From Nitrosococcus wardiae (lineage in GTDB: Bacteria > Pseudomonadota > Gammaproteobacteria > Nitrosococcales > Nitrosococcaceae), in the NCBI RefSeq assembly GCF_004421105.1, contig NZ_CP038033.1, forward strand, positions 1,383,659 through 1,447,658: DNA of 64,000 nucleotides, written 5' to 3'. A model generated the notes under the pieces. It was not told where the DNA came from. It ran no database searches and was given only the letters and a program-made list of their open reading frames with translations. Position 1 is the stretch's first letter, and every line of letters begins with the position of its first letter. Shown here piece by piece: positions 35,037-35,456 of this stretch. Both the position numbers and the translations under genes were made by a program.

Positions 35037-35456
35037 TTAATACCGCTCGCCTTCCGGCTTCTCCGTGGCATAGCTCCGTACAGTGTAATGGATATGCCGT
35101 CCTTCCACTTCCTGTCGGATTAACCCGAATCCCGGTTCGCTCTTGGGTCGATTGACGATAAACGACATACAGGGCGATTCAACCCCACGATCGCTGTTAA
35201 ACGCCGTTACTCGGATGTAGTGGTGGGGAAAAGTTTTGCGGCAATCGCTAACTTCCATCAGAATCCCGGCGGGATCCTTCAGGTCGAACATAGGCATGCC
35301 AAGCTCAAGACTTGTCGGGGTGTGCCGTTCCCGCAAAGTGTCGTAGAAACCTTTAATCATGAGCGGATCACCCTCTAGTTTGCCCACTACGGTACCGGCA
35401 TAAATATGATCGACACCGGCCATGCGCATCCACTTACAGATCACGCGGAAGTTCAT
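35037..35456 (-). pseudogene. Chimeric RuBisCO relict: internal rbcL piece fused in frame to rbcS C-terminus
   Basis: A 139-codon open frame starts at ATG 35456. Its first roughly 53 residues are a red-type (form IC/ID-like) large-subunit segment: [20 protein letters not shown], then [20 protein letters not shown] with the loop-6 lysine, equivalent to Lys334. The following residues switch directly to the small-subunit C-terminus: [41 protein letters not shown] and the terminal EGERY. The junction is at about 35293-35302. The rest of rbcL, the spacer and the rbcS N-terminus are deleted. His327 of the active site is Tyr (DHIYAG). The product cannot be a carboxylase. It lies divergent from cbbR, where a cbbLS operon would be expected. 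Confidence 0.9.

Follow-up and report, generated by a model that had tools for sequence, protein, structure and literature searches.

A fused RuBisCO relic in Nitrosococcus wardiae and the probable deletion of both RuBisCO operons from its sequenced chromosome

Ammonia-oxidizing bacteria are generally regarded as autotrophs, and their carbon fixation in the dark is traced with cbbL as a marker. In the marine ammonia oxidizer Nitrosococcus wardiae D1FHS, a short open frame next to an intact cbbR reads as RuBisCO large subunit in its first part and as small subunit in its second. How did this frame arise, and does the chromosome still encode a RuBisCO elsewhere? The frame lies in a stretch of 64,000 nucleotides of contig NZ_CP038033.1 (hereafter the window), and a first-pass annotation had described it as an in-frame chimera left by deletion. 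We compared the window and the whole D1FHS assembly (G000; one contig, 4,022,640 bp, 100% completeness) with five members of the family (G001 to G005), G001 being N. halophilus. The features of the window are collected in Table 1.

Table 1. Features at and around the RuBisCO relic (window positions).
Feature	Position	Strand	Evidence or remark
RbcL-RbcS chimera pseudogene, 139 aa, ATG start	35037..35456	-	ORF list, Pfam, blastn, alignment
Red-type (Form IC) cbbL internal piece	35303..35461	-	blastn, 92.6% to N. halophilus
Red-type cbbS 3' part (from residue 58) and downstream DNA to near the cbbX start	34969..35302	-	blastn, 88.9% to N. halophilus
cbbL/cbbS deletion joint	35299..35302		4-base overlap of both blastn blocks
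134-bp stretch at the position of cbbX and the 120-aa hypothetical gene of N. halophilus	34835..34968		blastn/alignment
TiaS-like gene, decayed remains	35462..35998	-	identity firm only for 35928-35998, rest tentative
Dispersed ~95-bp repeat copy	35526..35621		second window copy at 2266-2360
Lost green cbbL leader, to about the ribosome-binding site	35992..36058	-	84% to N. halophilus just upstream of green cbbL
cbbR (LysR family), intact, 305 aa	36233..37150	+	ORF list, Pfam, NCBIfam
Phosphoribulokinase, intact, 290 aa	13255..14127	+	NF011997, 496.8 bits, cut-off 362
tkt-gap-pgk-pyk-fba cluster, frames intact	27538..34722	+	Pfam/NCBIfam

The ORF list bore out the 139-codon frame, and Pfam and blastn agreed with the first-pass annotation that its first half is red-type large subunit and its second the C-terminal part of RbcS. 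ORF residues 1-51 matched RuBisCO_large (PF00016; 49.2 bits, E 5.6e-13, profile 156-207 of 299) and residues 53-104 matched RuBisCO_small (PF00101; 53.3 bits, E 2.8e-14, profile 48-97 of 97), both above cut-off, so neither half is without RuBisCO similarity. In N. halophilus numbering, residues 316-366 of RbcL are fused in frame to residues 58-144 of RbcS; 51 cbbL codons, 1 hybrid codon and 87 cbbS codons make up the frame, and its start Met is residue 316, an internal Met of N. halophilus CbbL. The rbcL block of the blastn comparison with N. halophilus (window 35299-35461, 92.6% identity) overlaps the cbbS block at the joint, where base-by-base alignment showed that TGG (35299-35301) is common to both parents. 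Computed from the blastn coordinates, 568 bp are missing here relative to N. halophilus, G002 and G003. Because rbcL codon 367 and rbcS codon 58 are in phase at the joint, the fused frame stays open, as had been claimed. The Leu before the joint (ORF codon 52) is the hybrid codon created by the joint and no separate substitution.

The alignment also confirmed a change at position 327, which is Tyr in the chimera and His in all five relatives. We take this residue to be the active-site His327 of spinach numbering, corresponding to residue 334 in N. halophilus. Loop 6 with Lys334, presumably the large-subunit feature of that name, is still present. Compared with a Form I large subunit (PF00016 plus PF02788), the chimera keeps loop 6 and lacks the N-terminal domain, a complete barrel and His327, and the earlier phrase "enzymatically hopeless" is apt. 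Of the small-subunit domain it carries the C-terminal part of the PF00101 profile alone; the N-terminal half is missing, which rules out a functional small subunit. Since the frame runs open across two different genes, automatic annotation could nevertheless call it a small subunit, as the first-pass annotation had warned.

The chimera is an ordinary pseudogene, a dead fragment, and we propose that its frame was kept open by chance. Deletion at microhomology is a known source of bacterial pseudogenes. The locus resembles such deletion pseudogenes in the short shared bases at its joints, its truncated genes and the dispersed repeat nearby, and differs from them in having an uninterrupted frame that spans parts of two genes. 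Could the 139-aa product instead be expressed and active, for example by binding or interfering with RuBisCO subunits? Its open frame and the low pairwise dN/dS of both relic pieces against N. halophilus (0.026 and 0.079) would agree with this, but these values probably reflect the period before the loss. Moreover, translation would begin at a Met from within cbbL, the locus no longer has the promoter or the 5' portion of that gene, the active-site His is lost, and no RuBisCO on which the product could act was found on the chromosome. We consider an active chimera extremely improbable.

To see what the locus had lost, we turned to the relatives, where the first-pass annotation had suggested looking for the ancestral operon. 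Orthologous intact cbbL and cbbS are present in all five. In N. halophilus the order is cbbR, a green cbbL-cbbS-cbbQ-cbbO operon, a truncated TiaS-like gene, a decayed receptor gene (tentative), and then the red cbbL-cbbS-cbbX operon with a hypothetical gene at its end. The green operon and the TiaS-like gene lie in G001:C2:3541963-3547505, between cbbR and the red operon. CbbX of N. halophilus matched TIGR02880 (533 bits, cut-off 459). CbbQ of the green operon is supported by PF08406 (CbbQ_C), and CbbO by a VWA domain and position alone; neither has a close NCBIfam model, and the 120-aa hypothetical gene has no Pfam match. The same red (Form IC) genes stand at the same site beside cbbR in N. 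oceani (Noc0333-Noc0330) and N. halophilus. The red pieces in N. wardiae have 89-93% nucleotide identity to N. halophilus; unlike these operons, N. wardiae retains only the fused cbbL and cbbS codons, and cbbX and the hypothetical gene are gone. Of the green operon, N. wardiae keeps the leader and the remains of the TiaS-like gene that follows it, with all four genes missing.

By blastn and alignment against N. halophilus, four rearrangement joints fall within about 1.2 kb of the window, with diverged remains between them. At joint (a), the green leader runs into the TiaS-like gene with a 7-bp overlap, and cbbL-S-Q-O are removed. At joint (b), the TiaS-like remains meet cbbL immediately ahead of residue 316. 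Joint (c) is the cbbL/cbbS fusion described above, and at joint (d) 134 bp stand in place of cbbX and the hypothetical gene. Among 12 sequences compared, the sole match of this 134-bp stretch was itself. The ~95-bp dispersed repeat occurs many times in G000 and even more often in N. halophilus; the relic-locus copy lies at joint (b), and a copy in the opposite orientation lies within the N. halophilus TiaS-like gene. There are no tandem repeats in window 34500-36500.

The TiaS-like gene, which follows green cbbO in N. halophilus, weakly resembles an archaeal-type tRNA-modifying enzyme: TiaS_TCKD in the N. halophilus gene and TiaS_FLD in the window piece are weak matches, both below cut-off. 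The window remains contain stops in translation, and 35928-35998 has 91.5% identity to N. halophilus (blastn). Searching the best 80 of 574 CbbR-relative loci, none of them titled Nitrosococcus and with close records possibly left out, for this gene gave one weak match.

No green operon lies between cbbR and red cbbL in G002 and G003. Because the window keeps the green leader and the TiaS remains, the common ancestor with N. halophilus had the green operon. An insertion of the green operon in N. halophilus alone is ruled out by the same leader and TiaS-like remains, which the arrangement of G003 lacks. The proposal of the first-pass annotation that a red-type RuBisCO operon was lost and its regulator kept was thus supported, and its extent was understated: cbbX, the hypothetical gene and a second, green operon are gone as well. 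We propose that the green cbbLSQO and the red cbbLSX-hypothetical operons would have been deleted at this one locus in the N. wardiae D1FHS lineage after its split from N. halophilus, and we infer that the deletions took several steps.

The sequenced DNA had been amplified by MDA (PMC4830845). Such amplification can distort assemblies, and the ends of the contig still overlap and have a direct repeat close by. The locus might thus be an artefact of assembly or MDA, with intact operons in the real genome. An artefact would hardly be expected to leave four separate joints within so short a distance, with diverged remains between them, and a substituted active-site residue. In addition, the adjoining genes are intact and the depth is high, about 563-fold as computed from the PacBio yield of 2.27 Gb (PMC4830845; BioProject PRJNA305330). 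We therefore judge an artefact very unlikely.

We then looked for RuBisCO elsewhere in the genome, a check that the first-pass annotation had also proposed. In the whole-genome search of G000, PF00016 and PF00101 matched the relic only, and PF02788 had no match at E<=10. The same searches recovered intact large and small subunits in all five relatives; a few extra matches (E about 0.25) were below cut-off. The N. halophilus DNA from near the cbbO start through red cbbL-S-X and the hypothetical gene gave 22 matches in G000: one is promoter-like, and the others are pieces of the relic and copies of the dispersed repeat. This genome-wide search covered cbbO and cbbX as DNA only, and cbbQ lay outside it.

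We also examined whether RuBisCO could be hidden at the ends of the contig. The first 17,692 bases equal the last 17,680 bases at 99.78% identity, and there is no N in the 48 kb of contig ends examined, nor in the window. Because the ends overlap, a simple end gap is unlikely, and a RuBisCO in such a gap was rejected on this ground; sequence between two repeat arrays is still conceivable, as a direct repeat with an 18,074-bp period, of uncertain copy number, lies near the ends. The overlap is apparently an untrimmed circular overlap, and the stated genome size is probably too large.

Taken together, we estimate at roughly 80% the probability that the chimera is a relic of deleting both RuBisCO operons and that the sequenced chromosome is without RuBisCO. 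If so, the chromosome as sequenced would be unable to make RuBisCO, and its Calvin cycle would have no carboxylase, while cbbR, phosphoribulokinase and the sugar-phosphate enzymes common to other pathways would remain. D1FHS may then be a chemolithoheterotroph, whose energy would come from ammonia, and part or most of its carbon from organic compounds or cross-feeding.

The published description of the strain stands against such a loss. D1FHS was isolated and kept in bicarbonate mineral medium with no stated organic carbon source; its media also had agar, iron chelate and phenol red, with HEPES in growth tests (PMC4830845). Table 4 of that paper gives the carbon source as 'Carbon dioxide (Calvin Benson Basham cycle)' with evidence code IDA. 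According to its methods, growth was tracked by nitrite, plus OD600 in the bioreactor, and none of the methods considered here is a CO2-fixation assay (PMC4830845). Either D1FHS oxidizes ammonia while having no RuBisCO, or the assembly misses a copy of the enzyme's genes.

Such a copy might sit on an unassembled plasmid or other replicon, or in siblings of identical 16S rRNA that form a subpopulation and feed the cells with the deletion, and D1FHS would then fix CO2 as described. Growth in bicarbonate mineral medium fits this explanation, and so do an intact and constrained cbbR and a phosphoribulokinase without sign of decay, as expected were RuBisCO present somewhere. The culture was checked for purity mainly through 16S clones, which would miss siblings, and the other three Nitrosococcus species tabulated have one or two plasmids each, whereas the D1FHS genome is described as one contig with no plasmid (PMC4830845). 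Against a replicon, a 1,301-base query from the red cbbL region in N. halophilus had no near match in 72,556 plasmid records, a search that detects close DNA only and from which records of this genome were possibly excluded. A plasmid should also have been amplified, since MDA favours small circles. On balance, a RuBisCO on a replicon or in siblings appears rather unlikely.

Growth in mineral medium could also be accounted for if another CO2-fixation pathway had replaced the Calvin cycle. Methanol dehydrogenase and H4MPT-linked formaldehyde oxidation are reported in N. wardiae and N. halophilus (PMC6215863, PMC5020050), which may favour this possibility. We sought five marker families for other CO2 routes in G000, with ATP-citrate lyase and CODH/ACS outside the scope. 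Hps and the HpcH_HpaI/malyl-CoA-lyase family gave matches below cut-off only (best 26.6 bits vs 200, and 20.4 bits vs 25), and formate-tetrahydrofolate ligase and the HpaB_N/4-hydroxybutyryl-CoA dehydratase family gave none. One POR_N match was above cut-off (32.9 bits). However, it is ruled out as an oxoacid:ferredoxin oxidoreductase: the protein matched NF006129, 'thiamine pyrophosphate-requiring protein', at 1102 bits (cut-off 724), with pyruvate oxidase as the next best, and has full TPP_enzyme N, M and C domains, so that it is of the pyruvate-oxidase type. A replacement pathway is therefore very unlikely. As the five marker families contain no convincing enzyme, organic carbon or cross-feeding, which we infer, or a RuBisCO outside the assembly remain as explanations.

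If RuBisCO was lost from the D1FHS lineage, its partners in the Calvin cycle have not followed. As regards this cycle, G000 has phosphoribulokinase and no RuBisCO found by the searches above. The dN/dS of phosphoribulokinase against N. halophilus is 0.021 and that of cbbR 0.057, and both genes look constrained by this measure. CbbR matched PF00126 (LysR HTH) and PF03466 (substrate-binding) above cut-off over its full length. NF045990 (CbbR) is its best NCBIfam match, at 292.3 bits under a cut-off of 450; because this score is below the cut-off, the name rests on synteny and the best match, cbbR being adjacent and divergent to cbbL in N. halophilus, G002 and G003. The enzymes of the tkt-gap-pgk-pyk-fba cluster (dN/dS 0.028-0.094 against N. 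halophilus) are common to the Calvin cycle and gluconeogenesis/glycolysis.

A possible reason for the retention of cbbR came from the promoter-like match mentioned above. G000 has an alpha-carbonic anhydrase gene (PF00194) at 930,552-931,612 or, on narrower bounds, 930,613-931,600. Upstream of it lies a 230-bp stretch with 80% identity to the DNA that serves as red cbbL promoter region in N. halophilus, and in both genomes the similarity stops roughly five bases short of the start codon. A second copy of the gene at 1,626,280-1,627,054, 98% identical, is without the cbbL-type promoter region. A DNA search found no strong match to the alpha-carbonic anhydrase gene in the five relatives. Judged from this similarity, a promoter capture at the alpha-carbonic anhydrase is possible, and putative control of the gene by CbbR is a guess. 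The regulator may have been kept for other genes, with the alpha-carbonic anhydrase as a candidate.

To date the loss, we counted derived changes on the two branches. In the relic, nonsynonymous and synonymous changes were 6:17 on the N. wardiae branch vs 0:6 on the N. halophilus branch, an excess without statistical significance (Fisher P 0.30, with P 0.32 and 0.17 in two other comparisons). Phosphoribulokinase had 2 nonsynonymous and 17 synonymous derived changes, and 1 and 17 on the N. halophilus branch. Since the relic and phosphoribulokinase still look mostly constrained, the best-fitting scenario would be a loss that was recent relative to the species split and old enough for the active-site change.

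Among the matches listed in our literature search, we found no published statement of RuBisCO loss in N. wardiae in the parts of the texts behind them (PMC4830845, PMC6215863, PMC5020050, PMC5509916, PMC7285500, PMC7895386, PMC12999727, PMC12183294, PMC9239080, PMC3772326); a 2016 dissertation on D1FHS was outside this scope.

The main interest, which emerged from the searches, lies in a chromosome without RuBisCO set against the published description, and not in the chimera itself. One possible picture, to which we give somewhat less than even odds, is that N. wardiae is a natural ammonia oxidizer that lost the Calvin cycle and takes its carbon from organics or neighbours, having kept cbbR and phosphoribulokinase for other uses and carrying an alpha-carbonic anhydrase behind a red-cbbL-type promoter region. 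Such a carbon supply fits the site, as the waters of isolation are called organics-polluted (PMC7285500). The published assignment of 'CO2 by the Calvin cycle' conflicts with the D1FHS genome, and where the strain gets its carbon becomes a question that can be tested. Discovery of a RuBisCO beyond the assembled sequence would still mean a correction of the reference genome. With both RuBisCO operons gone from the sequenced chromosome of a cultured type strain, one can test directly whether bacteria that live by ammonia oxidation must be autotrophs.
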